Shown here in pieces: positions 1,764 to 21,796 of a stretch of 22,619 nt of DNA (position 1 is its first letter; the number at the start of each line of letters is the position of its first letter). The DNA lies in the IMG/VR virus record IMGVR_UViG_3300036851_000560, positions 1-22,619 of that record. The stretch is one strand, 5' to 3'. This DNA comes from a virus. The notes under the pieces are model-generated. The model was not told the DNA's origin and ran no database searches. It was given only the letters and a program-made list of their open reading frames with translations. The position numbers were made by a program, and so were the translations under genes.

Positions 1764-2001
1764 CGGCCCCTGGCGCCGGCGAGCCCGCCCCGTCGCCCCG
1801 CTGGTCTCCGCCCGCGACGGAGTTCGTCGCCCCGTCAAGCCCTGCCCCTCCTGCGGCGCTCCGCTGACCGTGGCGGTCCCGCCCGGATACGACCGCGAGA
1901 TCCGTCGCTGCGACCCCTGCGCCGTCTGGTGGATGCCCCTGTCCCTGCTGCGCCACGGGCCCCAGCTGGCGCTGCTGCGCGCGGGACGGCCGCTGCGCTA
2001 G
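1756..2001 (+). CDS. Zinc-ribbon protein, TFIIB-zinc-finger-like
   Basis: The GTG at 1756 starts an 81-residue protein that overlaps the end of the membrane-protein gene. After about 28 basic residues it has CPSCGAPL, a 17-residue beta hairpin, then RRCDPCAVWW and a Leu-rich tail. The CxxCxxxL...CxxCxxxW pattern resembles the zf-TFIIB-type ribbons common as short bacterial and phage proteins. The four cysteines probably bind one zinc. Role unknown; a nucleic-acid or protein contact is possible. The TAG stop at 1999-2001 also forms the first three bases of a candidate -10 element for the ParB-like gene. Confidence 0.6.
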   Translation: MADGPWRRRARPVAPLVSARDGVRRPVKPCPSCGAPLTVAVPPGYDREIRRCDPCAVWWMPLSLLRHGPQLALLRAGRPLR

Positions 2002-2031
2002 AATCGGCCCCAACGCTGCCATGGAGGGAGG
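1999..2031 (+). promoter_or_regulatory. Candidate -10 element and strong RBS ahead of the ParB-like gene
   Basis: TAGAAT at 1999-2004 is AT-rich in a very GC-rich sequence and matches the sigma-70 -10 consensus at four of six bases. No convincing -35 lies 16-18 bases upstream. A start point near 2010 would give a leader of about 24 bases holding GGAGGGAGG (2023-2031), which sits two bases from the GTG at 2034 if read whole, or about six bases away if the first GGAGG is used. The same GCTAGAAT octamer recurs at 5719-5726. Confidence 0.35.
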
Positions 2032-2033
2032 CT

Positions 2034-2750
2034 GTGTCCGAGCCGGTCGTCGCGTTCCCCGCCGAACAGGTCCCCCTGTCGCTGCTGAAACCCCACCCCA
2101 AGAACTACCGCGAGCACCCGGAGGACGAGGTCGAGCATATCCGGGCCTCGCTCCGCGAGTACGGCGTCTACCGCAACATCGTCGTCGCCCGCGACCACAC
2201 CATCCTGGCCGGGCACGGCGTGGCCGAGGCCTGCCGGCTCGAGGGCCTGGAGCTGGTCCCGGTCGTGCGCTTGGACCTCGACCCCGACGACCCGCGCGCC
2301 CTCAAGGTCCTCGCCGGCGACAACGGCATCGCCCACCTCGCGATGGACGACGACCGCGCGCTGACCGAGCTGCTGCGGTCGATCCGCGACGACGGGGTGA
2401 GCCTCCTGGGGACCGGCTACGACGAGATGATGCTCGCCAACCTGGTGATGATCACCCGCCCGGCCGACGAGATCCGCGGTTTCGACGAGGCTGCCCACTG
2501 GGTCGGCATGCCCGAGTACGACCCGTCGCACAACCCCAAGACGCCGCAGCTCCTGGTGCATTTCGAGAGCGACGCGGACCGCGAGCGGTTCGCCAAGCTC
2601 ATCGGCGTCGAGCTCGGACGCCGCGACGGCCGAGCCAACTGGGTCCTCTCGACCTGGTGGCCCCCGCGCGAGCGCGACGACACGTCGGCCCTCAAGCTCG
2701 TCTCCACGGAGGCGCGCGACGGTGCCGAGCCGGTCGAGGCCGCCTCGTGA
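2034..2750 (+). CDS. ParB-like nuclease-domain protein
   Basis: The 238-residue product starts at the GTG after a strong Shine-Dalgarno. The N-terminal 110 residues follow the phage ParBc pattern: VPLSLLKPHPKNYREH (13-28), an EVEHIRASLREYGVYRNIVV helix-strand (32-51), ILAGHGVAEACR (57-68) in the position of the GxxR nucleotide-binding box, and DNGIAHLA (96-103). The canonical Arg of that box is missing (GHGVAEA). The C-terminal half (PQLLVHFESDADRERFAKLIG) looks like a small alpha/beta add-on. Phage ParB-like proteins often lie beside DNA-modification and terminase genes, as here. True plasmid-type partitioning is unlikely because no ParA is visible. The stop overlaps the next start. Confidence 0.8.
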   Translation: MSEPVVAFPAEQVPLSLLKPHPKNYREHPEDEVEHIRASLREYGVYRNIVVARDHTILAGHGVAEACRLEGLELVPVVRLDLDPDDPRALKVLAGDNGIAHLAMDDDRALTELLRSIRDDGVSLLGTGYDEMMLANLVMITRPADEIRGFDEAAHWVGMPEYDPSHNPKTPQLLVHFESDADRERFAKLIGVELGRRDGRANWVLSTWWPPRERDDTSALKLVSTEARDGAEPVEAAS

Positions 2751-3718
2751 ACCCGCCGCCGCCGCCGCCGCGCTACCCGGTCTACGTCCCGTCGAAGGGC
2801 CGCGCCGACACCTGCCTGACGGCCGATTGCCTCGTGGCCGACGGGGTGCCCTTCCGCTTGGTGGTCGAGCCCCAGGAGGCCGACCTCTACCGCGAGCGCT
2901 ACGGCGCCGAGCGCGTGCTGGTGCTGCCGTTCCGCGACCAGGGCTCGGTGGTCCCGGCCCGCAACTGGATACGCGAGCACTCCGAGTCCGAGGGGGCTGA
3001 GCGCCACTGGCAGGTCGACGACAACATCCGCTGTTTCCGCCGCTGGTACAAGGGCAAGCGCGTCCCGGTCGAGGCGGGGATCGGCCTGCGGGTCTGCGAG
3101 GACCTCACCGACCGCTACGAGAACGTCGGCATCTCCGGCCTCAACTACACTATGTTCTCGCTCTCCGGCGGCGGCTCGATGCGCCGGCTGCCGATGATCC
3201 TCAACGTGCACGTCTATTCCTGCACGCTCTTCCTGAACGCGCTGCCCTACCGCTGGCGGGGCCGCTACAACGAGGACACCGACATCTGCCTCCAGGTGCT
3301 CAGCAGCGGCGAGTGGTGCACGTTGCAGCTCAACGCCTTCACCGTCGACAAGCAGCGCACCCAGCTCATGCGCGGCGGCAACACCGAGACGCTCTACCGG
3401 GGCGACGGCCGCCTCCGGATGGCGCGGTCCCTCGAGCGGCTGTGGCCCGGCGTCGTGACCACCAAGCGCCGCTGGCAGCGCCCGCAGCACATGATCGCTT
3501 TCTCGTGGGGCCGCTTCGACACCCCGTTGCGGCTGCGCCCGGGCGTCGACCTCGCCGGCCTGCCGCCGATCGACGAGTACGGGATGGCCGTCAAGGTGCT
3601 CAAGGAGCCGCGCTCGGCCCGCATCCGCCGCATCGCCGGGACCGCCGCCCCCGCCGGCCCCACCCTGGCGCAGCGGGCCGCAGCCCTGCTGGACGGCCAG
3701 AGGGCCGCGGCCGGCTGA
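2747..3718 (+). CDS. Glycosyltransferase, TET-associated (TAGT)-like
   Basis: The GTG at 2747 overlaps the ParB stop; the first codons are a CCG run giving six prolines. The 323-residue protein has a GT-A-type nucleotide-sugar fold: YPVYVPSKGRAD (10-21), FRLVVEPQEADLY (36-48), WQVDDNIRCF (88-97) with DDN in the place of the DxD metal site, and YNEDTDICLQ (174-183) as the likely acceptor-side acidic motif. PSKGR plus DDNI is the pattern I associate with phage TAGT proteins, predicted to put sugars on oxidised methylcytosine made by TET/JBP enzymes. No TET or cytosine methyltransferase lies in this window, so the DNA substrate is inferred. The alternative is glycosylation of a protein. Confidence 0.72.
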   Translation: MNPPPPPPRYPVYVPSKGRADTCLTADCLVADGVPFRLVVEPQEADLYRERYGAERVLVLPFRDQGSVVPARNWIREHSESEGAERHWQVDDNIRCFRRWYKGKRVPVEAGIGLRVCEDLTDRYENVGISGLNYTMFSLSGGGSMRRLPMILNVHVYSCTLFLNALPYRWRGRYNEDTDICLQVLSSGEWCTLQLNAFTVDKQRTQLMRGGNTETLYRGDGRLRMARSLERLWPGVVTTKRRWQRPQHMIAFSWGRFDTPLRLRPGVDLAGLPPIDEYGMAVKVLKEPRSARIRRIAGTAAPAGPTLAQRAAALLDGQRAAAG

Positions 3719-4266
3719 TGCTCAACCGCGGCGCCATCAGCAAGGCCCCCGGCGGCTCCAAGGCGCTCGGCCGCAAGCGCGTGCCGCCGCCCCCCGCAGC
3801 CCGCAACGGCTCCGCCGCCCAGGTGGACTTGTTCACCATCGAGAAGCGCCGCCGCGACGTGGCCTCCCTCTACCGCTCGCGCGTGTCCGAGCGCGAGATC
3901 GCCGGCAGCCTCAACATCTCGCTCGCCACCGTCTACCGCGACATCCAGGTGATCATGGAGGAGTGGCGCCGGCAATACCTGGTGGACATGAACGCCTACG
4001 TCGTGCGCGACCTCGCGGACATGGACCAGATGGAGCGCGATTGCGCCGCGCAGTTCGCCGCCGGCCATCAGCCCATCTGGATCCTCCGCCGCCTCCAGAT
4101 CAAGGAGCGCCGCGCCGCCCTGCTCGGCATGGACGCCCCGGACAAGGTAGACCTGGAGGTGTGGGTCCGCGAGCAGGCGATCGCCATGGGGCTCAACCCC
4201 GACGAGGAGGTCCGGTACCTCCGCGAGCACATGCAGACGGCCATCCCGCCGGCGGACGGCGCCTAG
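3718..4266 (+). CDS. Terminase small subunit-like HTH protein
   Basis: The start ATG overlaps the preceding TGA (TGATG). The 182-residue product has a basic, Pro-rich N-terminus. A helix-turn-helix follows at about residues 42-80 (RRDVASLYRSRVSEREIAGS, then a recognition helix around SLATVYRDIQ). The rest is a long helical middle with WRRQYLVDMNAYVVRDLADM, which would suit oligomerisation. It lies directly upstream of the large terminase, the classical place for the subunit that recognises the packaging site and stimulates the motor. It could instead be a generic HTH protein, but length and position favour terminase. Confidence 0.72.
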   Translation: MLNRGAISKAPGGSKALGRKRVPPPPAARNGSAAQVDLFTIEKRRRDVASLYRSRVSEREIAGSLNISLATVYRDIQVIMEEWRRQYLVDMNAYVVRDLADMDQMERDCAAQFAAGHQPIWILRRLQIKERRAALLGMDAPDKVDLEVWVREQAIAMGLNPDEEVRYLREHMQTAIPPADGA

Positions 4267-8939: not shown

Positions 8940-9440
8940 ATGGCCTCCGGCGACACGCTGCTCCAGTTCTTCCCGGCGGCGAACGAGCCGCCGGCCGCCA
9001 ACTTCGCTACGTTCGACACGCGCAACGGCCGACTCGTCCTGGACTTCGACCCGACGACCGACGAGTCGGCGATCTTCAGCGGCATCCTGCCCGCTAACTA
9101 CGGCGGAGGCGGGGTCACGGTCGAGATCGAGTTCGCCGCGTCGAGCGCCACGTCCGGCACATGCCGCTGGCAGACGGCGTTCGAGCGGCTCCAGACCGGG
9201 ACGCTGGACATCGACGCCGACAGCTTCGCCGCAGCGCAGTCGGCCGGCGGCGCTGCCAACGCCACCAACGGCGTGACGACCGAGGTGTCGATCGCGCACA
9301 CCGATGGGGCGCAGATGGACTCGCTGGCGGCCGACGAGCGGTGCCGCCTGAAGGTGACTCGGGATGCGGACGGGACCACCGGCACCGACGACATGACCGG
9401 CGACGCGGAGCTGGTCTCGGTCACGATCAAGGAGACGTAG
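8940..9440 (+). CDS. Putative virion protein, beta-rich
   Basis: ATG 8940 immediately follows the previous stop. The 166-residue product opens with GDTLLQFFPAANEPPAANFATFDTRNGR and continues with VLDFDPTTDESAIFSGILP, TVEIEFAASSATSGTCRWQ and several more beta strands ending in LVSVTIKET. The alternating hydrophobic strands suggest a jelly-roll or carbohydrate-binding-like sandwich, and similar unnamed proteins occur among phage virion genes. Ligand and location in the virion are unknown. It precedes a LamG-like repeat protein, and the two may belong to the same external structure. Confidence 0.62.
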   Translation: MASGDTLLQFFPAANEPPAANFATFDTRNGRLVLDFDPTTDESAIFSGILPANYGGGGVTVEIEFAASSATSGTCRWQTAFERLQTGTLDIDADSFAAAQSAGGAANATNGVTTEVSIAHTDGAQMDSLAADERCRLKVTRDADGTTGTDDMTGDAELVSVTIKET

Positions 9441-9443
9441 CTC

Positions 9444-11312
9444 GTGGCCCGCGGGTTCGGGGCCACCTTCGGCTCCGGCTCCACCGACCGGATCGCGACG
9501 TCCAAGACCGACCACGCGACCCAACGCACCTGGGGCATCTGGGCCTACCGCAACGGCCTGGGCGGCGGGTCGGTCGGTCGCGTGTGGGACAAGGGCGGCG
9601 CCGAGATCCTGCGCGTCAACGACGCCAGCGACTTCCGCTTCCATCGCGGCTGGTCGTCCAACGCGGGCACTTGGACGTTCCCGCTGATCGCCACCGGGGC
9701 CTGGCGCCACATCCTGATCGCCTACAACGCCGGCGCGACGGGCAACGACCCGCTCGTGTGGGTGGACGGCGTCGCGCAGACGGTGACCCAGGGCGGCACG
9801 CCGGCGGGCACCGTCAACACCAACGCCGATCCGTACCAGGTCGGCAATTCGTCCGGTGGTACCCAGGCGTGGGACGGCATCCTGGCCGAGTTCGCCGTGT
9901 GGGACGCGCTGCTCGGCCTGGCCGAGGCGCAGCAGCTCGCCGACGGCGTGAGCTCGCTCCTGATCCGCCCCGACGCGCTGGTTTCCTACGCGCCGCTGAT
10001 CCGCGAGGCGCTCGACCTGATGGGGTCCGGCGCGCTCACGCTGACCGGGACGGCGGTCCAGCCGCACCCGCGCCTGTACCTGCCGTGGCCGGCCCAGCTC
10101 GTGGTGCCCTCGGCGGTGGTCGCCGTCACCACGACCGCCGCAGGTTCGGCCGCCGGCGCCGGCGCCGGCGCAGCGGCCAAGTCCACGCCTGTGACCGCGG
10201 TGGGGCCGGCCGCCGGCCACGGCTCAGGCACGAGCGCCAAGGCCGCGGCCGTCTCCGGGAGCGGCTCGCTCGCGGCCGCCGGCCGCTCGGTCGTCGTCAA
10301 GGCCGCCACGCCGACGGCGAGCGGTCAGGGCGCCGGACACGCCGCGGCGTCCGCGACCTCCGACCGCTCGCCGGCCGTCGTCGGCCAGGCGGCCGGGCAT
10401 GGAGACTCCGCCCTCTCCGCCGCCAGGTCCCTGTCAGCCTTCGGCCACGGAGGAGCAGCCGCCTCTTCCGACATTTCGACCGCCCGACCCGCGACGAGCC
10501 TGGGGAGCGCCGCCCCGGCCGGCCGGGCGGTCGCGGCCGGCGACCGCCCGGCGAGCGCGCAGGGCGCCGCCGCCGGGGCCGGCGCGTCCGTCCAGACGAC
10601 CGGCCGGCCGGAAACGGCGCAGGGGCACGCGGCCGGGCACGGCGCGGCGACGGCTTCCGGCGAGCGCCCCGCGACCGGGCAGGGCTCCGTCGGCGCCGCC
10701 GGTCGCTCGTCCATCACCACCGGGCAGGCGACCGCGACGACCGGCCAGGGGCACGCGGCCGGCCGCGGAGCCTCGGAGGCGTCGGCCGCTCGCTCCGTCG
10801 TCGTCGCCGGCTCCGCAGCCGGGGCCGGGCGCAGCCAGGTCGTCGTCGGCCCGGCCCGGCAGCCGACGAGCCGCGGGGTGCTGCGTCGGCTGCCGCGGTT
10901 CCGCCCCACGTTCGTCCCGGTCCCCCCGCCCCGCCCGGTGCTCGTCGCCCGGGGGCGGACCGTCCAGGCGGCGCAGCGGGCCTCCGGCCGCGGCCGCCCG
11001 CGACTGCTGGCTCGGGGCGCGACCTCTCAGGCGGTGCAGCGGGCCGGAGGGCTCGGACGCCAGGTGCAGCGGCTGGTCGGCGCCCCGCGCCAAGCGGCGC
11101 CGCTGGCGCTGGGACACGCCCGGACGCTGCTGCGCGGCTTCGGGAAGGCCGTCGCCCCGCAGCCCGGCACGCACGGCACGGTCCGGCAGCGTAGCGGCCG
11201 GCTGCTGCCGAGAGACCGCAGGGAACGCCTGGAGTGGCTGCGCGCTCGTGAGGACGCGTTGCTCCTGGGCTTGGTGGACTCGTCCGGTGACGAAGCGGCG
11301 CTCGTCGGCTGA
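9444..11312 (+). CDS. LamG-like virion protein with Ala/Gly repeat stalk
   Basis: GTG 9444 follows AAGGAG (9429-9434). In the 622-residue product, residues about 1-180 look like a concanavalin A/LamG sandwich: FGSGSTDRIATS, TWGIWAYRNG, GAWRHILIAYN, LVWVDGVAQTV, WDGILAEFAVWDALL. Residues about 226-470 are some 12 tandem 20-residue Ala/Gly/Ser/Thr units, mostly ending in Arg or Lys. Residues 471-570 are very basic with a second, looser repeat (LLARGATSQAVQRAGG type), and the end is charged and helical (RRERLEWLRARED). It is probably an external binding protein: lectin-like head, repetitive stalk, basic base. Ser and Thr in every repeat make it a possible glycan acceptor for the cassette at 17022-21796; that is inference. 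Confidence 0.75.
   Translation: MARGFGATFGSGSTDRIATSKTDHATQRTWGIWAYRNGLGGGSVGRVWDKGGAEILRVNDASDFRFHRGWSSNAGTWTFPLIATGAWRHILIAYNAGATGNDPLVWVDGVAQTVTQGGTPAGTVNTNADPYQVGNSSGGTQAWDGILAEFAVWDALLGLAEAQQLADGVSSLLIRPDALVSYAPLIREALDLMGSGALTLTGTAVQPHPRLYLPWPAQLVVPSAVVAVTTTAAGSAAGAGAGAAAKSTPVTAVGPAAGHGSGTSAKAAAVSGSGSLAAAGRSVVVKAATPTASGQGAGHAAASATSDRSPAVVGQAAGHGDSALSAARSLSAFGHGGAAASSDISTARPATSLGSAAPAGRAVAAGDRPASAQGAAAGAGASVQTTGRPETAQGHAAGHGAATASGERPATGQGSVGAAGRSSITTGQATATTGQGHAAGRGASEASAARSVVVAGSAAGAGRSQVVVGPARQPTSRGVLRRLPRFRPTFVPVPPPRPVLVARGRTVQAAQRASGRGRPRLLARGATSQAVQRAGGLGRQVQRLVGAPRQAAPLALGHARTLLRGFGKAVAPQPGTHGTVRQRSGRLLPRDRRERLEWLRAREDALLLGLVDSSGDEAALVG
10119..10853 (+). repeat. Coding tandem repeat, about 12 units of roughly 60 bases
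   Basis: Within the LamG-like gene, units align as xATAxGxAAGxGxxxxSxxR, 20 residues (60 bases) each, occasionally 22. Examples of unit starts are STPVTAVGPAAGHG, SPAVVGQAAGHG, PASAQGAAAGAG, PETAQGHAAGHG and SVVVAGSAAGAG. The copies are diverged in both protein and DNA, so this is an old protein repeat rather than a recent slippage array. Confidence 0.7.
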
Positions 11313-11481
11313 GGCTCGCGCGGCGGAGCGTTTCGTCCCGGAGGGCGCCGACGAGCCGCTGCCGCCGGAGCCCGACGAGGTGGTGTACTCTGACCCCGAC
11401 CGTCGCCGCGCCCTGGAGGCGTGGGACGCGGCGGTGCCGGCCCGCTACGCCGGCTTGCTCGACGCCCGCCCGGCGTCGTAG
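11287..11481 (+). CDS. Hypothetical small acidic protein
   Basis: GTG 11287 lies inside the end of the LamG-like gene, overlapping it by 26 bases in another frame. The 64-residue product has a basic first 13 residues (TKRRSSAEARAAER), a Pro/Glu/Asp stretch (DEPLPPEPDEVVYSDPD) and a helical end (RALEAWDAAVPARYAGLLDARP). No family recognised. The frame runs into a stop just before the next gene's GGGAGGG ribosome site, which supports it being real. The start is less certain than the end. Confidence 0.5.
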   Translation: MTKRRSSAEARAAERFVPEGADEPLPPEPDEVVYSDPDRRRALEAWDAAVPARYAGLLDARPAS

Positions 11482-11492
11482 AGGGAGGGACC

Positions 11493-12569
11493 GTGCGACC
11501 CATCGACCAGCCCGGCAGCTTCGAGCTGCACGGCCCGGACGGCTCCGACATCGCGCCGCTGCCCGTCGTGCAGGGCCGGGCGACCGACGCCGACGGGCAG
11601 CCCACCGACCAGTCCGTCCTGGTGAGCCGCTGGCGCATGACCCTGTGGGAGCGGCTGCGCGCCCTCCGCTCGGGGGACGTGTGGCTCACCGTCCGGGGGA
11701 CGACGCACCCGCCGGTCGGCCTGGCGACGACCTCGCCGTTCGACCGCTCGCCGCCGACGCTCGGCCGGCTGGTGCGCGGCTGGCTGCGCCGGCGCGGGGT
11801 GTGGCTGTGGGGTCAGAACCTCAACGAGCACCGCACCGGCCGCGTCAAGGGCTCCATGCTGCGGCACGGCCGCGCGTCGGTGCGGTTCAACGCCGAGAGC
11901 CGCCGCACGCAGAAGGTCGGCGTCGAGTGGCTCTTGGGCAAGCTCGGCTGGGGCTTCTCCGTCGAGCTCGGCCGCTACGACGACGACGAGGTGCAGCTCG
12001 TCTGGAAGGTGCCGGGGGTCGCCCTGTACTGGTCGCTGGACGGCTGGCTGCCGCGCCGACTGCGGGACCGGCTGCTCCCGGAGCGTCAGCGCGAGGTGCG
12101 GCTCGACGCGCACGACGGAGCCCTGTGGTGGGGCCTGTGGGTGGACCCGATGGAGTGGGACAGCCGCACTCCAAAGTGGCGGCAGGGGAGCTTGCACCCG
12201 GTCGACGTGCTGCTGGGCTCGCCGCGCTACAAGCGTGCGGTCCTCAGGCGCGAGACGGCGCAGCTCGCCCTGCCGGAGTGGACCTACCACGCGACGGTCG
12301 AGCTGGTCGAGGATACCTGGAGCCGGCCACGCTGGCCGTGGCCGCGGCGGCTGCTGCGCGCCGAGGTCACCCCGGCCACCCCGGTGCCCGTGCCCGGCAA
12401 GGGCGAGAACTCCTGGGACTGTGACGACGACGCCGTGTACGGCATGACGGTGGTGGCCGGGACCGTCTCGGAGGCCGTCGGCGCGTTCGTGGCGTCGGTG
12501 CTGCGCGACCGCGAGCGGCACGGCGGCCCCAACTGGGCGCCGCCGGCGGCGACGGCGCGGGAGGCCTGA
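11493..12569 (+). CDS. Conserved phage protein of unknown function, Trp-rich
   Basis: GTG 11493 follows GAGGGAGGGA. The 358-residue product has a first part with VLVSRWRMTLWERLRALRSG and DVWLTVRGTTHPP, and a later part with WGLWVDPMEWDSR, LHPVDVLLGSPRY, WTYHATVELVEDTWSRPRWP, PGKGENSWDCDDDAVYGMTV and SVLRDRERHGGPNW. I recognise this as a recurring but unnamed phage protein encoded near head genes. The PGKGENSWDCDDD box is the most distinctive feature and could be a functional site, though no known catalytic motif fits. Head-associated role inferred from neighbours only. Confidence 0.65.
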   Translation: MRPIDQPGSFELHGPDGSDIAPLPVVQGRATDADGQPTDQSVLVSRWRMTLWERLRALRSGDVWLTVRGTTHPPVGLATTSPFDRSPPTLGRLVRGWLRRRGVWLWGQNLNEHRTGRVKGSMLRHGRASVRFNAESRRTQKVGVEWLLGKLGWGFSVELGRYDDDEVQLVWKVPGVALYWSLDGWLPRRLRDRLLPERQREVRLDAHDGALWWGLWVDPMEWDSRTPKWRQGSLHPVDVLLGSPRYKRAVLRRETAQLALPEWTYHATVELVEDTWSRPRWPWPRRLLRAEVTPATPVPVPGKGENSWDCDDDAVYGMTVVAGTVSEAVGAFVASVLRDRERHGGPNWAPPAATAREA

Positions 12570-14162: not shown

Positions 14163-14368
14163 CGCCGGCGCCGGCGCGCGTCGAGCGCGAGCACCGCTGC
14201 CAGCGCTGCGGCTGGTACCTCTTCACGTCCGACGCCTCCGGCGGCCGGGTCCGCAACGTCAAGTGCGGCCGCAAGTCGTGCGGCAAGCGGCAGACGGTGA
14301 CCCTCGGCGAGGTCACTCCGACGCGAGCGACGGGCTCGCCCTTTGCCAGCACGTCGAGCGAGTCGTAG
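14159..14368 (+). CDS. Com-like zinc-finger protein
   Basis: GTG 14159 overlaps the preceding TGA (GTGA). In the 69-residue product, residues 10-50 read HRCQRCGWYLFTSD...VRNVKCGRKSCGKRQTVTLG. This follows the layout of Mu Com, a zinc finger that binds an mRNA and switches on translation of the DNA-modification gene mom: RCxxC...LF...(I/V)xxKC...C. The second pair here is spaced CxxxxC instead of CxxC, a variant I associate with other phage proteins of this type. The Ser/Thr-rich tail is probably disordered. The fold is a good guess; a translational-regulator role is inference. Its TAG stop forms the first half of the -10 element at 14366. Confidence 0.6.
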   Translation: MTPAPARVEREHRCQRCGWYLFTSDASGGRVRNVKCGRKSCGKRQTVTLGEVTPTRATGSPFASTSSES

Positions 14369-14371
14369 ACT
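14343..14371 (+). promoter_or_regulatory. Sigma-70-type promoter ahead of protease and capsid genes
   Basis: TTGCCA (14343-14348), a 17-base spacer and TAGACT (14366-14371) match the -35/-10 consensus at four of six bases each with ideal spacing, striking in such GC-rich DNA. The -35 lies inside the Com-like coding sequence and the -10 begins with its TAG stop. Expected start is near 14378, giving a leader of about 85 bases to the GTG at 14463. It would give the capsid gene its own strong supply of mRNA. Confidence 0.6.
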
Positions 14372-14397
14372 AGCGCGCAAAGCGCCGCTCGCCAGCA

Positions 14398-14444
14398 GGG
14401 CCCGCGAGGCCCCTACCGCCCCATCTCGGGCCCACGAGGTCCCC
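14398..14444 (+). repeat. Direct repeat in the protease leader
   Basis: GGGCCCGCGAGGCCCC (from 14398) and GGGCCCACGAGGTCCCC (from 14428) are two copies of GGGCCCRCGAGGYCCC spaced 30 bases apart, inside the 94-base gap between promoter and protease start. The second copy can also fold with the following GGGGCTCG. Role unknown: operator, RNA structure or chance in GC-rich sequence. Confidence 0.4.
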
Positions 14445-14462
14445 CGGGGCTCGGGGGTTCGC

Positions 14463-15704
14463 GTGGACCGCACGGTGTTCCCGTTCCTCGAAGCCAAGGC
14501 CATCGACGACGCCCCCAACGGGGGGCTGCTCGGCTACCTGTCGGTGTTCGGACGCACCGACTCGTACGGAGACACCGTCCGGCCGGGCGCGTTCGAGAAA
14601 ACCATCCCCGACTTCCTCCGCGACGGCTTCATCGCGTGGGCGCACGACTGGGAGACCCCGGTCGCCATGCCGATGGTCGCCCGCGAGGACGCTCGCGGCC
14701 TGTACATCGAGGCCCACTACCACAGCGACCCCACGTCGCAGCGGGCGCGGGCGATCACCAACGAGCGGCTCGAAGCCGGCAAGCGCATGGGCCTGAGCAT
14801 CGGCTACGAGGCCGAGTCGTACGAGATGGAGAAGGTGGACCCGCCGATCCGGGGGGCCTACGGCCAGCTCACCGACCAGCGCCGCGCGCTGACCCAGATC
14901 AAACTCTACGAAGGCTCGCTGGTGCTGGTGCCGGCCGAGCGCGAGGCCAACGTCACCGGCGGCAAGGACGGCCGCACCGGCCAGAAGGCCGCGATCCCGT
15001 CCCACAGCACCGCCACCGACGACGGCGCGTGGGACGGCTCCGAGATGCGGACCCGCCTGAGCAACGACGCCGGGCGGGCGACGTTCCGCCGCGCGTTCGC
15101 CTGGGTGGACCCCGACGGCGACCCGGACGTCAAGGCGTCGTACCGCTTCATCCACCACATGGTGTCCGAGGACGGCGCCGTCGGCGCCGCCAACCTGCGC
15201 GCCTGCTCGACGGGCATCGGCGTGCTCAACGGCGGCCGCGGCGGCACCACGATCCCCGCCGGCGACCGGGAGGGCGTGCATCGCCACCTGGCCCGGCACC
15301 TCACCGACGCAGGCCAGGAAGCCCCGCCATTGAAGTCGCTTGCGGACTTCGACGGGGAGACCTTCTCCGCTCACGGCGACCGCGTGCTGGGCGACGTGCG
15401 CGACTTCTGCGCTCGGGCCAGCGACCTCCACGAGCTCCGGCTCAAGGAAGGCCGCGAGCTGTCCGAGCGCAACCGCGGCCGGCTGCGCGACCTGCTGGAG
15501 GCCCTGGGCGGTCTTGACCCGCTGCGGGCGTCCCTCAGCGAGTGGCTGGCGGCGACGGAGCGCAAGCCGGAAGACGCCGGCGGCGAGGAGCAGCCCGAGC
15601 CCAAGCGGCTGCTGACCGCTGCGGAGTCGCGCCGGCTGCGCGTGGAAGCGGAACGCACGGCCGCGCGCATCGCGCGCGAGCTTCGAGGGAGGTTGTCAGC
15701 GTGA
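14463..15704 (+). CDS. HK97-type prohead protease with long C-terminal extension
   Basis: This serine protease of the S78 (U35) type cleaves the capsid delta domain and itself during head maturation. GTG 14463 is chosen because upstream in-frame codons cross the promoter and the domain begins here. In the 413-residue product, the protease is residues about 1-150: LLGYLSVFGRTDSYGDTVRPGAF (22-44), WAHDWETPVAM with H61, GLSIGYEA with S112, and LYEGSLVLVPAEREANV. Residues about 195-305 are a second module (FRRAFAWVDPDGDPDVKASY, HHMVSEDGAVGAANLRAC, GVLNGGRGGTTIP, HRHLARHLTDAGQEAPPL), which I know only as a companion of phage proteases. The rest is charged coiled coil, scaffold-like. About three times the length of a minimal protease. 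Confidence 0.88.
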   Translation: MDRTVFPFLEAKAIDDAPNGGLLGYLSVFGRTDSYGDTVRPGAFEKTIPDFLRDGFIAWAHDWETPVAMPMVAREDARGLYIEAHYHSDPTSQRARAITNERLEAGKRMGLSIGYEAESYEMEKVDPPIRGAYGQLTDQRRALTQIKLYEGSLVLVPAEREANVTGGKDGRTGQKAAIPSHSTATDDGAWDGSEMRTRLSNDAGRATFRRAFAWVDPDGDPDVKASYRFIHHMVSEDGAVGAANLRACSTGIGVLNGGRGGTTIPAGDREGVHRHLARHLTDAGQEAPPLKSLADFDGETFSAHGDRVLGDVRDFCARASDLHELRLKEGRELSERNRGRLRDLLEALGGLDPLRASLSEWLAATERKPEDAGGEEQPEPKRLLTAAESRRLRVEAERTAARIARELRGRLSA

Positions 15705-17008
15705 GCAAGCTCGCTGATCTGGTCGCGGAGATCGAGCGCAAGGGCGACGAGCAGTCCGCGATCTTCGACGAGGCCGACGAGAAGTCCGAGGGGGTCCTCT
15801 CCGACGAGCAGGCGGAGTCCGTCCGCAAGCTCGGGGCGGAGATCGCGGACCTGGAGAAGCGGGGCCTCCAGCTCAAGGAGCAGGAGGAGCTCCGGGCGCA
15901 GATGGAGCAGCGGCGGGCGTCGTACCGCACCGCCGGCTCCGGGCGCCGCCCGGAGCAGCCGGGCAACCAGCACCCCGGCGAGAGCAAGGACGGCGACCCG
16001 CGCCGCCGGCTGGTCACCGTCGGGCAGGAGTTCCTGGACTCCGACGAGTTCAAGGAGTGGTACGTCCGCATGGGCGGGGCGTCCAAGACGTTCGCCGGCG
16101 TGGGCATCCAGTCCCCGAAGGTCGGGGTCAAGCAGATCATCACCGGCGCCGACGTGACCAGCGCTGGCGCCATGGTCTGGCCGGACGTGCAGGTGGGCCT
16201 GACGCTGCTCGGTCGTCGGCCGCTGGTGATGCGCGACATCATCACGCTCGGCACGACCGACAGCGACCTCATCGAGTACGCCCGGGTGGTGTCGGAGACC
16301 AACCGAGCGGCGGTCGTGCCGGAGGCGACCAACGCCTACGACGACAACGCCATGAAGCCGGAGTCCGAGTTCGAGCTGGAGAAGGTCCAGGCGCCGGTCA
16401 AGACCATCGCCCACATGGTCACGACCACCACGCGCGCCCTGGCCGACGCCGGTCAGCTCCGGACGATGATCGACGGCTTCCTGCGCGACGGCGTGGCCCA
16501 GGCCCTCGAGGACGAGATGGTCACCGGCGACGGCACCGGCGAGCATTTCGAGGGCCTGGAGTCGCTGGAAGGCGTGCAGGACCAGGCGTTCGACACCGAC
16601 CGCCTCGTCACCGCCCGTCGCGCCCGGACGAAGGTGCGCGTGGTCGGCCGGGCCATCGCCACGGCCTACCTCATGCACCCCAACGACTGGGAGGACTTCG
16701 ACCTGATGACCGAGCTGGCGGGCCAGACGGGCCAGTACTACTTCGGCGGCCCGCGCGAGCTGGGCGTGCCGCGGCTGTGGGGCCTGCCGGTGATCGAGTC
16801 GGAGGCCGTCCCGGAGGGCACCGCCTACGTCGGGGACTTCCGGACGCTCGTCCTGTGGGACCGCCAGCAGGCCACGATCAGCCTGTCCAACTCCCACAAG
16901 GACTACTTCCAGCGCAACCTGGTCGCTATCCTGGGCGAGCTGCGGGCCGCGTTCGGCGCGATGCGGCCGGTCGCCCTCGTCCGCGTAGACCTCACCGCCG
17001 GCACCTAA
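15701..17008 (+). CDS. Major capsid protein, HK97 fold
   Basis: The 435-residue product starts at the GTG overlapping the protease TGA, with GGGAGG (15687-15692) eight bases upstream. Residues 1-75 are a charged coiled coil (delta domain acting as scaffold) followed by a Gly/Pro/Arg linker where the protease should cut. The mature shell protein runs from about residue 110 and has the HK97 pattern: VGVKQIITGADVTSAGAMVWPDV, RPLVMRDIITLGTTDSDLIEYAR, AAVVPEATNAYDDNAMKPESEFELEKV, ALEDEMVTGDGTGEHFEGL, YLMHPNDWEDFDLM, LWGLPVIESEAVPEGTAYVGDF. The order protease then capsid is standard; lack of a separate scaffold gene fits the delta domain. Confidence 0.94.
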   Translation: MSKLADLVAEIERKGDEQSAIFDEADEKSEGVLSDEQAESVRKLGAEIADLEKRGLQLKEQEELRAQMEQRRASYRTAGSGRRPEQPGNQHPGESKDGDPRRRLVTVGQEFLDSDEFKEWYVRMGGASKTFAGVGIQSPKVGVKQIITGADVTSAGAMVWPDVQVGLTLLGRRPLVMRDIITLGTTDSDLIEYARVVSETNRAAVVPEATNAYDDNAMKPESEFELEKVQAPVKTIAHMVTTTTRALADAGQLRTMIDGFLRDGVAQALEDEMVTGDGTGEHFEGLESLEGVQDQAFDTDRLVTARRARTKVRVVGRAIATAYLMHPNDWEDFDLMTELAGQTGQYYFGGPRELGVPRLWGLPVIESEAVPEGTAYVGDFRTLVLWDRQQATISLSNSHKDYFQRNLVAILGELRAAFGAMRPVALVRVDLTAGT

Positions 17009-17021
17009 GTAGGGCCGGGTG

Positions 17022-17975
17022 ATGGACGGCTGCCCGGTCTGCGGGGCGGCCGACGCCGGGTGCGGGGGGGATCCCCTGGGGCCTCCCCCGCGGCCGGTGG
17101 ACGAGCCGGTCCGCACCATCCGCATCGGAGGAGCGATGACCAGAGAGATCGTCAGAGTCCAGTTCAGGCCCGGCGACGTGCGGCGCTACGACCGCAAGAC
17201 GGCCGAGCGCCTCGTCGCCCGCACGCGCGGCGCCGTCATCCTGAACGATCGCCGCCAGCCGGCCGCCAAGGCGCAGGAGGCTCCGCCGGCGATCAAGGCC
17301 ATGCTGGCGCCGCCGGACACCAAGGGACCGGCCGCGAGCGGTGTGCTCACCGTGGCGACCCCGGCCCGCCGCCTCACCGGCGCGGCCAAGGCCGCCGCCG
17401 AGCGGCGGGCCGCTCGCGAGGCCCAGGCCGCAGCGGCGGCGGAGGGCGAGGGCGGCGACTCCGGCCGACGCGGCGACGCGGGCATCCTGGTGGTGCGCCT
17501 GCACAAGGGGATGTCCGTCGCGCCGTCGCTGGCGCGTCGGCTCGGACGCGGGCTCGCGGTCGCGTCCGACCTGTCCGGGCAGCCGCGCGAGCTGCCCTTC
17601 GCCCGCACCCTCTGGTGGGACGGGCGGGCCCAGTTCCGGCCGGACCTCGCCCGGCCCGGGCTGGCGTTGCTGCGCCGCTGGGAGGTGGCGGCCCCGCTCG
17701 ACGACGTGGACCGCCTCGCCCTCGAGCTCGGCAGCGGCGAGGACCGCGCCCGGGCGTCGGCGGTGCTGGGTGACCTGCGGGTGCCGGTGTATGATCCTCG
17801 CGTGCTCTACCTGCGGCGCTGCGAGGCGACGACTCGCCTGCTCGACGAGTGGGCGCGGCAGCGCGGGTCGATCAAGGAGGAGCGGCTGGCCTTCCTCTGC
17901 GCGGTGTATCTCACGCAGCCCAAGCTCTGCGCGTTGCCGCCCACCTGGATACGCGGCAAGCGCGCCGCCGCCTGA
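17022..17975 (+). CDS. Zinc-ribbon N-terminus joined to a GT-A-like C-terminal domain
   Basis: The 317-residue product starts at ATG 17022 (GTG 17019 is equally possible). The N-terminus CPVCGAADAGCGG (4-16) plus DEPVRTIRI and REIVRVQ...RYDRKTAERL resembles the short zinc-ribbon proteins found after capsid genes in actinobacterial phages. An Ala/Pro/Lys linker (about 80-152) follows. Residues 154-310 appear homologous to the GT-A domains downstream: ILVVRLHKG, TLWWDGRAQFRP in the place of LYLDADT, and VYDPRVLYLRRCEATTRLLDEWARQ...LPPTW in the place of LNGGVFGYRR...LLRAW. The DxD metal site is replaced by DGR, so it is probably catalytically dead or changed. ATG 17136, after GGAGGAGCG, is a strong internal start. 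Confidence 0.68.
   Translation: MDGCPVCGAADAGCGGDPLGPPPRPVDEPVRTIRIGGAMTREIVRVQFRPGDVRRYDRKTAERLVARTRGAVILNDRRQPAAKAQEAPPAIKAMLAPPDTKGPAASGVLTVATPARRLTGAAKAAAERRAAREAQAAAAAEGEGGDSGRRGDAGILVVRLHKGMSVAPSLARRLGRGLAVASDLSGQPRELPFARTLWWDGRAQFRPDLARPGLALLRRWEVAAPLDDVDRLALELGSGEDRARASAVLGDLRVPVYDPRVLYLRRCEATTRLLDEWARQRGSIKEERLAFLCAVYLTQPKLCALPPTWIRGKRAAA
17062..17091 (+). promoter_or_regulatory. GC-rich hairpin after the capsid gene
   Basis: GCGGGGG (17062-17068) and CCCCCGC (17085-17091) form a seven-pair stem enclosing a second CCCC/GGGG pairing. It lies 54 bases after the capsid stop and inside the first codons of the zinc-ribbon gene, before the internal start at 17136. It could reduce read-through from the abundant capsid message. 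No T tract follows. Confidence 0.4.
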
Positions 17976-17976
17976 C

Positions 17977-18180
17977 GTGCCCCGCAGCGGGGCGGCCCGG
18001 GACCTCCGGCTGCACGCGCGCCGGCGGGTCGTGGACGAGACGCTGCGGGTCGTGCGCGGACTGTTCGAGCAGGGCACCCTCCGGGGGGCCACGCGGCCCA
18101 TCGCCGACGTCCGGGACCTCGACTCCTTGCTCCTGCTGGCGGAGAGCGAGCTGCTGGACGCGGAGCGGCGCGAGCCGTGA
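17977..18180 (+). CDS. Hypothetical small helical protein
   Basis: GTG 17977 lies just after the preceding TGA (17973-17975). The 67-residue product is basic at the start (PRSGAARDLRLHARRRVVDE) and acidic at the end (LLLLAESELLDAERREP), with helices throughout (TLRVVRGLFEQGTL). It may pair with another protein through the Leu-rich helix, but no family is recognised. It lies in the sugar-transfer cassette by position only. Confidence 0.55.
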   Translation: MPRSGAARDLRLHARRRVVDETLRVVRGLFEQGTLRGATRPIADVRDLDSLLLLAESELLDAERREP

Positions 18181-18488
18181 GCGGCGTCGACCCGTCGGAC
18201 CCCCGGCTGGCGCGCTTCCGCCGGGCGGTGCAGGATCTCCCGCCCGAGGACCTCGGGGCGTGGCTGGAGTTCCTGGCACAGTTCGGCTTCGCGGTGACCC
18301 TCACCGCCTACCAGGGGAACCGCGGCGTCTGGAGGTGCCGGCTGGACCGTAGCTTCCGCAGCTACGGCGGGGTCGGCAGGAGCATGAGGGCCGCGCTGCT
18401 CGACGCGCTGCGCCGGGTCGAGCCCTACCTGGTGGACATGCCGTACCTGACGGTGCTGCCGCCCGGGACCAACGGCGCCGGTGGCTGA
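18177..18488 (+). CDS. Hypothetical alpha/beta protein
   Basis: GTG 18177 overlaps the preceding TGA. The 103-residue product reads as an N-terminal helix (DPRLARFRRAVQDLPPEDLGAW region), a central beta part (FAVTLTAYQGNRGVWRCRLDRSFRSYGGVG) and a C-terminal helix (MRAALLDALRRVEPYLVD). It looks like a small compact domain, perhaps a dsRBD- or ferredoxin-like alpha/beta fold, but that is only impression. No family recognised. It overlaps the following glycosyltransferase gene by eight bases, so both are probably made together. Confidence 0.58.
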   Translation: MSGVDPSDPRLARFRRAVQDLPPEDLGAWLEFLAQFGFAVTLTAYQGNRGVWRCRLDRSFRSYGGVGRSMRAALLDALRRVEPYLVDMPYLTVLPPGTNGAGG

Positions 18489-20325
18489 GCCCCGCGTCCA
18501 CATCGTCGGCTGCGAGCTGTCCGGGGAGCGCGTCCTGGCACGGCTGGCCCGCGAGCTGGCGCGCGGCACCGGCTGGTCCTTGTCCGAGAAGCCCGACCCC
18601 TCCGCGGACGCCAACCTGTTCCTGCCCTATCTGCTGGTGCCGAAGGCCGGCTACCGCGACACGCCGTCGCTGGCTTGGTTCACCCACCGCGAGGGCCACC
18701 TCCCGCCGAAGGCGCTGGTCTGGGACCGCGCCGCCGCGGCCGTCGGGCTGCGGGCGACCTCGGCCCGGATGTGGCTGGACGAGCTGGCGCCACGCGGCCC
18801 GAGCGTCCTGGTGACCCCGCCGCTCGACCGCGACCTGTTCAGCCCCGGCCCGCCGCCGCCCCGCCGCGAGCGCCGCCTGCGCCCGCGGATCGGCACCAGC
18901 GGCTTCGTCTACCTCGGCGGTCGGAAGGGTGAGAAGCTCTGGCGGGAACTCCTCGCCGGGCGCAAGCACGCCGTCCGCAACGCGGAATACGTCGCCGCCG
19001 GGCGGGGCTGGGGCTCCATGACCCGCGCCCTGCCGACGGTCGGGCACGTCGTGCCCTTCCTGCGCGGCCTGGACCTCTACGTCTGCTGCTCGACCCTCGA
19101 GGGCGTGCCGTACGGGCCGCTGGAGGCGCTGGCGTGCGGGGTGCCGGTCGTGATCCCGCGCGACGTGGGCCTGCTGGACAGCCTGCCGCCCTACCAGCAC
19201 GGCATCTACCGCTACGAGCGCGGCAGCCACGCGTCGCTGTCGGCGGCGGTCAAGCTCGCCATGGCCGATCACCACGAGGGCCGGCTGCACCGTCTCGACG
19301 TGGCCGAGGTGCTGCGGGCGGCCACGGAGCGCTTCACCGCCGAGGCCTGGTGCGCCGACTGGCGGGCCGCCGTCGCCGCGCTGCTGGAGCCCGCTGCGGC
19401 CGTGCCGGCGGAGCCCGCCGCGCCGGTCGCGGACGCTCCTGCGGCAGGGGAGGCCCCGGCACATGCCCCGCAGAGCGTCGTAGGAGCGCGAGAGGCCGCT
19501 CCGGAGCCCGAACCTGTCCCGGCAGCCATCCCGGCGCCGGAGCGCGCCCCGGCGAGCCTCCGGGGGGTCGTCTGCGTGGCCTACGGCAAGCCCGCCCGCG
19601 ACTGCGCCCGGCGGCTGATCCCCTCGGTGCGGCGCTTCGCCCCCGGGCTGCCGGTCTGCCTGATCTCCGACGCGCCGCTCGGCGTCGAGGACGTGTGGGC
19701 CGAGCACCCCGACGAGGACCTGGGGGCGCGCAGCGCCAAGACCAAGATGTACGACCTGACCCCTCAGGAGTGGCGGACGGTCCTGTACCTGGACGCCGAC
19801 ACCTGGCTGCTCGACTCGCCGGAGCCCATCTTCCGCCACCTGGAGGCCGGCTGGGAGCTGGCGCTGGTCCCGGACCCGTCGAAGTACTCCTTGGCCAGGA
19901 ACGGCATCCGGCCCGACAACAAGGACGAGGCCAAGGAGACGTTCCGACGCTGGGGCACCGACGAGTTCCTCCAGTACAACGGCGGGGTGATGGGCTGGCG
20001 CCGCTGCCCCGAGGTGGCGGCGTTCTTCGTCACCTGGCACGCCGAGTGGCTGGTGTGGGCTAAGCGCGACCAGATGGCGCTGAGCCGCGCCATCGAGCAG
20101 CACGCCCCGCGCATCATGACGCTCGGGCGTCCGTACAACCACGTGGTCCGCTACGGCAGCCCGACCAACCGCACCGTCGTCGCCCACGCCCCGACCACCG
20201 CCCGCCGCTGGTCGGGCATCGTGCCCGGCCGGCTCGACGGCCCGGACGCGCGCCGGCTCATGGAGGTCGGCTTCAACCGCCACCCCGAGCCGCCGCCGGG
20301 CCTGCGGACGGGAGCCGCCGGGTGA
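18481..20325 (+). CDS. Two-domain glycosyltransferase: GT-B (GT4-like) fused to GT-A (GT8-like)
   Basis: GTG 18481 overlaps the previous gene. In the 614-residue product, residues 1-300 form a compact GT-B enzyme: AWFTHREGHLPPKALVWD (65-82), VLVTPPLDRDLFSP (109-122) and STLEGVPYGPLEALACGVPVVIP (204-226), with the GT4-type E207/E215 pair that binds the donor sugar nucleotide. Residues 303-358 are a Pro/Ala/Glu linker. Residues 360-600 form a GT-A domain: VVCVAYGKPARDCARRL, VLYLDADTWLL with DAD (438-440), EFLQYNGGVMGWRR (495-508), KRDQMALSRAI (528-538) and NHVVRY. Two active-looking sites could add two sugars in turn. The GT-A part is a clear paralogue of the next gene. Confidence 0.85.
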   Translation: MAEPRVHIVGCELSGERVLARLARELARGTGWSLSEKPDPSADANLFLPYLLVPKAGYRDTPSLAWFTHREGHLPPKALVWDRAAAAVGLRATSARMWLDELAPRGPSVLVTPPLDRDLFSPGPPPPRRERRLRPRIGTSGFVYLGGRKGEKLWRELLAGRKHAVRNAEYVAAGRGWGSMTRALPTVGHVVPFLRGLDLYVCCSTLEGVPYGPLEALACGVPVVIPRDVGLLDSLPPYQHGIYRYERGSHASLSAAVKLAMADHHEGRLHRLDVAEVLRAATERFTAEAWCADWRAAVAALLEPAAAVPAEPAAPVADAPAAGEAPAHAPQSVVGAREAAPEPEPVPAAIPAPERAPASLRGVVCVAYGKPARDCARRLIPSVRRFAPGLPVCLISDAPLGVEDVWAEHPDEDLGARSAKTKMYDLTPQEWRTVLYLDADTWLLDSPEPIFRHLEAGWELALVPDPSKYSLARNGIRPDNKDEAKETFRRWGTDEFLQYNGGVMGWRRCPEVAAFFVTWHAEWLVWAKRDQMALSRAIEQHAPRIMTLGRPYNHVVRYGSPTNRTVVAHAPTTARRWSGIVPGRLDGPDARRLMEVGFNRHPEPPPGLRTGAAG

Positions 20326-21092
20326 GGCTGCTCGACGACGAGGACCTGGCCCGCTGCGGCGTGCTCGTGGTCGCGTACGGCGAGCCGGCCCGCGCCTGCG
20401 CCGACCGGCTGCTGGCGAGCGTGCGCCGCCACATGCCCGGCCTGGCCGTGTGCGCGGTGTCCGACGTGCCGCTCGGGCGCGAGGACGTGTGGCGGGAGTA
20501 CCCCGACCTGGACCTCGGCGGCCGCCGCGCCAAGACGTGCATGGACGAGCTCGCCCCGACCGCCTGGGAGGTGGTCCTGTACCTGGACGCGGACACGGAG
20601 CTGCTGGGTCGCGTCGACGGCGCCCTGGGCCCGCTGCTCGACGGGTGGGACGCGGTGGCCTGCCCGAACCCGCCGAGGTGGGCCCGGCTGGCCGACGCCG
20701 GCCGGCCCGACAACGCCGACGAGCTGCGCGAGACGGCGGCCCTGTTCGGGACGACGGAGATCCTGCAGCTGAACGGCGGCGTGTTCGGCTATCGCCGCTC
20801 GCCCGCCACCGCCGCCCTGCTGCGCGCCTGGCACGCCGAGTGGGACCGCTACGGCAAGCGCGACCAGGCGGCGCTGCTGCGCGCCCTGCATCGGTGTCCG
20901 GTCCGGCTGTGGCTGCTCTCGGACGAGTACAACCGCCTCGTGCGGTACCGGGACCCGTCGGCGCGGACGGTGATCGCGCACCACACCGGCCAGGCTCGCC
21001 GCCTGACGGGCCTGTACCCCGGCCGCCTGGACGATCCCGAGCTGCGCCGCTCCTGGGAGGCCGCCCGATGGGCGAGTACGACCCCGGCCTGA
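20322..21092 (+). CDS. GT-A (GT8-like) glycosyltransferase
   Basis: GTG 20322 overlaps the preceding TGA. The 256-residue single-domain enzyme lines up with residues 360-600 of the upstream protein along its whole length: VLVVAYGEPARACADRL, VCAVSDVPLGREDVW, VLYLDADTELL with DAD (89-91) for metal and UDP-sugar, RPDNADELRET, EILQLNGGVFGYRRSPAT (147-163), HAEWDRYGKRDQAALLRAL and EYNRLVRY. The DAD and NGG motifs are intact, so it should be active. Donor, acceptor and linkage cannot be read from sequence. Its neighbours are the paralogous fusion and a methyltransferase, which suggests one glycan pathway. Confidence 0.85.
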   Translation: MRLLDDEDLARCGVLVVAYGEPARACADRLLASVRRHMPGLAVCAVSDVPLGREDVWREYPDLDLGGRRAKTCMDELAPTAWEVVLYLDADTELLGRVDGALGPLLDGWDAVACPNPPRWARLADAGRPDNADELRETAALFGTTEILQLNGGVFGYRRSPATAALLRAWHAEWDRYGKRDQAALLRALHRCPVRLWLLSDEYNRLVRYRDPSARTVIAHHTGQARRLTGLYPGRLDDPELRRSWEAARWASTTPA

Positions 21093-21796
21093 GCCTGCCG
21101 AGGCCGCTGTGGCTGGACGGCCTGCTGCCGTTCGAGATCGCGGACGTGCTCCGCCGCCGCTGGCCGGGCGCGGTCGAGGCGGTCGCCGCCGCGCGTCGCC
21201 TGATCCCCCCGACCCCGCGCGAGGTGTGGCCGGAGCAGGCCCTGGCCTTGGCGGTGCTCGCCCGCGCCTACGACGCCGACGGGGCCGGGTTCCTGGAGAT
21301 CGGCACCGCCACCGGATACTCCGCCGCCGTGCTGGCCCTGGCCGCCCCGCGGGCTACGCTGTGGACGCTCAACCCGTCCACGGTCGAGCACCCGTACGCC
21401 GCCGAGAACCTCCGTCCGCTGGGAGAGCGCGTGCGCCCGCTCAACATCGACTCGCGCTCCCACTGGCTGGCGACGTCCGAGGATCCGCCGCTGGACCTGG
21501 TGTTCGTGGACGGCGATCACCGGGTCGCCGCCGTGGGGTACGATTGTCGCTGGCACTGGCGGTTGCGTCCGGGCGGTCTCATCGTGTTCCACGACTACTC
21601 GCCGGCCTGGAGCCGTCGGCCGACCCCGAGCGTCATCGAGGCGGTCGACGCCTTCGCGGCGGTCCTGGGCCGCGGGCCGGACGTCCTGGTCCGCGAGGAC
21701 AGCGGCGTGGCGCTGGTCGGCTTCCTGCGGCGCGGCGACGACCCGCCGCTCGAGCGCTACCTCGCTCCGCCGACACCCGAGGAGGAGACGCCATGA
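21068..21796 (+). CDS. Class I SAM-dependent methyltransferase
   Basis: ATG 21068 lies inside the end of the glycosyltransferase gene (25-base overlap). The 242-residue product has the Rossmann SAM site FLEIGTATGYSAAVLALA (75-92), an acidic strand-loop DLVFVDGDH (143-151) and GGLIVFHDYSP (169-179). FVDGDH followed by VFHDY is typical of the Methyltransf_24-type group, which includes sugar and macrolide O-methyltransferases that use Asp and His near a metal. DNA methyltransferase motifs (DPPY, PCQ) are absent. Next to two glycosyltransferases, the simplest role is O-methylation of a sugar. A protein substrate is the alternative. Confidence 0.82.
   Translation: MGEYDPGLSLPRPLWLDGLLPFEIADVLRRRWPGAVEAVAAARRLIPPTPREVWPEQALALAVLARAYDADGAGFLEIGTATGYSAAVLALAAPRATLWTLNPSTVEHPYAAENLRPLGERVRPLNIDSRSHWLATSEDPPLDLVFVDGDHRVAAVGYDCRWHWRLRPGGLIVFHDYSPAWSRRPTPSVIEAVDAFAAVLGRGPDVLVREDSGVALVGFLRRGDDPPLERYLAPPTPEEETP

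Follow-up and report, generated by a model that had tools for sequence, protein, structure and literature searches.

To our knowledge, only a handful of cultured phages, mainly mycobacterial ones, have been shown to carry glycosylated proteins on their particles. Freeman et al. (2023, Cell Host Microbe; cited through PMC11600133, PMC12619734 and PMC12363180) are reported to describe virion glycosylation in three mycobacteriophages, Corndog (cluster O), Che8 (cluster F) and Myrna. In cluster O mycobacteriophages, an O-methyltransferase and three glycosyltransferases (GTs) are reported to modify the capsid and the tail tube (PMC11600133), and in Mycobacterium phages glycans are reported at the C-termini of these two proteins (PMC12619734). 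Other described systems that invite comparison are the capsid GT domain of PBCV-1 (PDB 2p72/2p6w), a virus-encoded GT-A-fold domain whose substrate is a major capsid protein; staphylococcal SdgB, a GT4-like GT-B enzyme that glycosylates peptide serine (Ser); and the TET-associated glycosyltransferases (TAGTs) of DNA-hypermodifying phages.

Here we describe a cassette of predicted GT and methyltransferase genes in a viral DNA of 22,619 bases (GC ~74%), the whole of which is referred to below as the window. Comparative sequence evidence makes the virion its very likely target. The window carries, in this order, genes for a ParB_N-like protein, a TAGT, a small HTH protein, the terminase large subunit, the portal, head/fibre-like proteins, an S78 prohead protease and an HK97 capsid, followed by the cassette. 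The capsid gene and the features behind it are:

15698..17008, plus strand: HK97-type major capsid protein (Phage_capsid PF05065, E 3.7e-36) with the C-terminus ...RVDLTAGT, whose final threonine (Thr) is the proposed glycan acceptor
17136..17975, plus strand: DXD-less GT-A-like protein (probable pseudo-GT) whose N-terminus forms a short domain (VRVQFRPGDV...) and which contains an Ala-rich linker, recognised by blastp, iterated profile and structural model
17977..18180, plus strand: small ORF of 67 aa without family match, a reading frame only, in the same gene run
18177..18488, plus strand: small ORF of 103 aa without family match, a reading frame only, overlapping both neighbours
18481..19404, plus strand: GT-B (GT4-like) domain of the fusion protein (PF00534, E 2.1e-8; AlphaFold; Z 26.9 to MshA)
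19552..20325, plus strand: GT-A domain of the 614-aa fusion protein (DAD and C-terminal His; family alignment)
20322..21092, plus strand: free-standing second GT-A of 256 aa, 52% identical to the fused GT-A
21068..21796, plus strand: SAM-dependent methyltransferase (Methyltransf_24, PF13578, E 7.6e-15), proposed to add an O-methyl cap

With Corndog/Che8-type systems the cassette has in common several GTs, an O-methyltransferase and a head-gene neighbourhood. The Corndog group was represented by its cluster O relatives Firecracker and Catdawg. The methyltransferases also share a profile family, that of the cassette matching Firecracker gp33 (E 5e-14) and Che8 gp108 (E 2.5e-13). In contrast, the GTs are not homologous by profile, all cassette GT profiles giving E >0.1 against gp34-36 of the Corndog group and gp108-110 of Che8, and a GT-B/GT-A fusion as well as a DXD-less paralogue distinguish the cassette. 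Capsid and tail tube are Ser-final in the Corndog and Che8 types (capsid/tail protein ends ...KTGS/...SDGS in Che8 and ...LVGS/...KGDS in Firecracker); on the cassette side, the window's capsid is Thr-final and the capsid and tail tube of its relatives end in Ser or Thr. Since the methyltransferases match, the GT profiles do not and Ser-final tails recur, the cassette seems to work like the mycobacteriophage system without sharing its transferases. A large group of uncultured phages would thus use unrelated enzymes that appear to choose their substrates by the same logic. Position and host differ as well: the cluster O genes lie between portal and capsid, whereas the cassette follows the capsid gene, and its hosts are not known to be mycobacteria.

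The PBCV-1 domain aligns with the DXD-less domain at Z 9.1, but it comes from an algal virus with a different capsid, identity is ~10% and the fold is common to many GTs. A Foldseek search with the fusion matched SdgB, although other GT4 enzymes score better, the SdgB substrate is a bacterial adhesin and identity is low. The TAGT encoded upstream in the window lies outside the cassette and is absent from nearly all related records.

Composition of the cassette

The overlapping gene run that had been predicted behind the capsid gene was confirmed in its coordinates. Cassette genes overlap by 4-25 nt, both small ORFs follow the DXD-less gene and precede the fusion, and the arrangement recurs in ~80 other viral contigs, which argues that it is not due to chance. 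Among the genes further upstream, the S78 prohead protease (14343-15704) bears a C-terminal extension of ~250 aa. Between portal and protease, among the head/fibre-like genes, positions 9444-11312 encode a Laminin_G_3/lectin-like domain followed by a long low-complexity stretch rich in Gly, Ala, Ser and Thr. Upstream of the terminase gene, the ParB_N-like gene overlaps that of the TAGT (1929-3718), and the pair possibly serves a separate DNA hypermodification.

The 614-aa protein (18481-20325) consists of a GT4-type GT-B domain with a GT-A domain (about 19567-20300) fused C-terminally. In the AlphaFold model most of the GT-B domain is confident, and the linker has low confidence (pLDDT <50 at residues 308-350). 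PF00534 (Glycos_transf_1) is matched by 54 of the 55 members of the fusion family, the GT-B model resembles MshA, BshA and related GT4 enzymes (Z 23-27, with MshA at 26.9), and the EX7E residues E207 and E215 are invariant in the family alignment of 55 sequences; fold and motif are therefore those of GT4, and the single GT-B domain of the original prediction stands. In the fused GT-A domain D438, A439, D440 and H569 are invariant across the same 55 sequences, 10 of which match Nucleotid_trans and 10 Glyco_transf_8, and DAD is kept in 78/78 fused GT-A domains. Both the fused and the free-standing GT-A carry a DXD motif and a C-terminal His, as GT8-like enzymes do. A reading of the fusion as a polymerase resembling EXT1/EXT2, in which GT-B and GT-A also occur in one chain, was considered and found to be without specific support. 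The predicted methyltransferase was borne out by a PF13578 score of 56.1 bits (curated cut-off 26.3) and by PDB relatives that are O-methyltransferases.

The gene nearest the capsid is the most divergent. Its frame is open from 17019, and the protein most likely starts at the ATG at 17136, which follows a GGAGG, rather than at 17022. Upstream of this likely start, in frame, positions 17022-17090 encode a possible zinc-ribbon-like Cys motif, CPVCGAADAGC. Single-sequence searches with the ORF gave no GT-A match, and Pfam profiles recognised 0/44 members of its family as GTs. It is related to its counterpart in locus L003 (blastp E 3e-19), an iterated GT-A family profile reaches it at E 3.7e-40, and residues 113-279 of its model align with alpha-1,3-galactosyltransferase at Z 9.6. 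All three predicted GT-A-like domains were thus recovered, the prescribed structure predictions and profile searches finding GT folds, but Pfam alone was silent on this family and one of the three lacks both DXD and the C-terminal His: WDGR replaces the motif in the 17136-17975 protein, and the chain stops before the His. DXD is likewise absent from 63 paralogues encoded upstream or downstream of the fusion, which retain other strong motifs (DLRVPVY, LAFLRALY); those of the upstream layout have a ~45-aa N-terminal domain in common. Because both features are lost and its counterparts in related cassettes also lack DXD, the DXD-less protein is probably not an ordinary transferase. Loss of DXD is no proof of inactivity, since the metal-independent GT-A enzyme BoGT6a is among the fold matches of the model.

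Ser/Thr-final virion proteins

Relatives of both capsid families that occur with the cassette were collected to test whether its presence predicts a Ser/Thr-final capsid. Counting unique capsids, 106/109 with a cassette end in Ser or Thr, against 3/43 without. For the window's capsid family alone the figures are 25/28 and 2/42 (Fisher 1.6e-13; because the sequences are related, such P values overstate their independence). The second family is Ser/Thr-final throughout (81/81) and offers almost no cassette-free members for comparison. Among loci gathered after the rule had been formed, 46/46 conformed. The tail of cassette-bearing capsids is usually Gly-Ser, Ser-Thr or similar: cassette-free capsids typically end in ...VEVDLTA and cassette-bearing ones in ...DLESGS, with two extra residues. 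On the capsid tree the window's lineage branches separately from the main clade, yet it has both a cassette and the end ...DLTAGT, its ...AGT contrasting with ...LTA in relatives. Ala is the final residue in the closest relatives that have been isolated (Dagobah ...VGA; W2, Cupello and Lton ...VAA). As far as these sequences go, Ser/Thr tails and cassette are correlated.

The tails extend to other proteins of the particle. All ORFs on the plus strand of loci with the cassette were grouped into clusters, and the 42 clusters with at least 5 loci were scored. The median Ser/Thr-final fraction was 9.5%; five families reached at least 0.87, and the next stood at 0.33. Capsids account for two of these five; the others are a major tail protein (PHROG 1407, E 8e-14), the head closure protein Hc1 (PHROG 25, E 4e-5) and a tail-tube-like family of 154 aa, without library match and named by appearance only. 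Once the profiles had been extended, Ser/Thr-final members made up 12/13 and 10/10 of the two tail families, and for head closure 13/15 with the cassette against 0/13 without. In the window itself, neither a tail-tube nor a head-closure gene could be recognised. A conserved 150-aa protein, PHROG 28483 (L005:2471-2920 and relatives), lies between the capsid and the DXD-less GT in many relatives; it was rejected as an acceptor, being Ser/Thr-final in just 16%.

Cassette-bearing loci whose capsid is not Ser/Thr-final comprise the L058/L069/L080 lineage (...DLL/...DLA) and L040 (...LTP); L080 and L040 retain a Ser/Thr tail on another virion protein, either head closure or the tail tube. Another GT4-type GT-B gene occurs in 2/42 cassette-free records, in both downstream of a capsid gene with an altered tail: L159 has a methyltransferase and GT4 set (9342-12188) behind a capsid ending ...AAGS, and L139 a GT4-type gene (~3921-4112) ~1.2 kb behind a capsid ending ...PPASGG. 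In L123, also cassette-free, a GT2-type domain is found and the capsid ends in ...WTE.

The probable acceptors are thus the very last residues, Ser or Thr, of the capsid, tail-tube and head-closure proteins. It is improbable that these virion proteins are glycosylated elsewhere and that the tails have a function in assembly, in packing or in stability against proteolysis and were merely co-inherited with the cassette. Consistent with such a history, the tails are short, the L058/L069/L080 capsids have none, and independent origins of the cassette are few, parsimony on the window-family capsid tree requiring only ~3 changes of state. It would nevertheless have to account for the same tail on three unrelated virion proteins, tracking the presence of the cassette; for the association of tail and GTs both in the window lineage, which is independent, and in L159, whose GT set differs; and for the C-terminal glycans of Mycobacterium phage capsid and tail tube (PMC12619734).

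Linkage to the capsid gene and proposed pathway

In 63/63 inspected loci with a capsid gene, the cassette lies downstream of it on the same strand, at a distance of 88-3489 nt (median 717). PF05065 is matched in 43/48 long cassette records and a TAGT is found in 2/48, which, together with the synteny, argues that the cassette belongs with the capsid and not with DNA modification. Transfer of sugars to hypermodified viral DNA bases, jointly with the TAGT and as protection against restriction, is accordingly very unlikely. The window does encode a TAGT (PF20691, E 1e-43; 2747-3718) and a ParB_N-like protein, and PF20706, a family of GTs in conflict systems, weakly matches the GT-B domain; but the cassette tracks the capsid gene and not the TAGT, a TET/JBP search of the fragment records, in which the control was also silent, gave no match, and DNA modification leaves the Ser/Thr tails unexplained. 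Modification of a host surface polysaccharide, for seroconversion or superinfection exclusion, is a common role of phage GTs (PMC12619734) but scarcely credible here, as the cassette sits within the late head operon and not in a lysogeny locus, inspection of the transferase alignments and model gives no sign of membrane segments, and neither the capsid link nor the tails would be explained.

We consider it likely that the cassette is a virion-glycosylation pathway acting on C-terminal Ser/Thr of capsid, tail-tube and head-closure proteins, with chain extension and a methyl cap. The original prediction of a glycosylation and methylation pathway directed at a virion protein is in this respect supported by comparative evidence, namely capsid synteny and Ser/Thr tails. 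The genes would probably be expressed late in infection alongside the head genes. A first transferase would O-glycosylate the terminal Ser or Thr, the remaining GT domains would lengthen the sugar chain, and the methyltransferase would cap it. The benefit to the phage may lie in masking of the particle, in its stability or in adsorption. More speculatively, the DXD-less paralogue may lack catalytic activity and act as a partner protein, holding the acceptor or recruiting it; its conservation raises the question of how these enzymes find their acceptors. The C-terminal tail could serve as a simple rule for predicting, from sequence, glycosylated phage particles and the proteins in them that carry the sugars. 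We advance only tentatively, as a possibility of lower probability, that a portable C-terminal Ser/Thr tag constitutes a phage glycosylation code, read independently by unrelated cassettes on capsid, tail tube and head closure, with the conserved GT-A paralogue of the present family, then catalytically dead, as the tail-recognising subunit of a GT complex.

Relatives and hosts

A search of viral contigs with the fusion protein alone returned no match, and tblastn of four fusion-family members and the free-standing GT-A against 50,697 phage records found no homologue. The GT-A domain profile matched 233 viral contigs, the loci of 80 of which were retained for comparison; nearly all 80 contain the GT-B/GT-A fusion. 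In 42 loci the order is DXD-less gene, DXD-bearing GT-A, fusion, and in 18 the DXD-less gene lies downstream of the fusion. The window has a layout of its own (DXD-less gene, fusion, DXD-bearing GT-A). Many cassettes are accompanied by methyltransferases, which fall into two families.

Among the matches listed from 84,980 bacterial and archaeal genomes, all three strong ones are carried by Chloroflexota MAGs, in which binning errors are possible; the Chloroflexota MAG contig L084 appears to join bacterial-looking genes to a degraded prophage. Sampling by phylum yielded 1/400 genomes in one phylum, the hit being the seed itself, and 0/396 and 0/299 in two others. On this thin evidence, a Chloroflexota host is more likely than an actinobacterium.

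Some cassettes have further genes or domains. In locus L048 (8102-10582) two GT-B domains and a GT-A follow one another in a single 894-aa frame. Sulfotransferase-family genes adjoin the cassette in two Chloroflexota MAG contigs (L083:6741-7124 and L084:9426-10004), so that some phages may carry a sulfated glycan.
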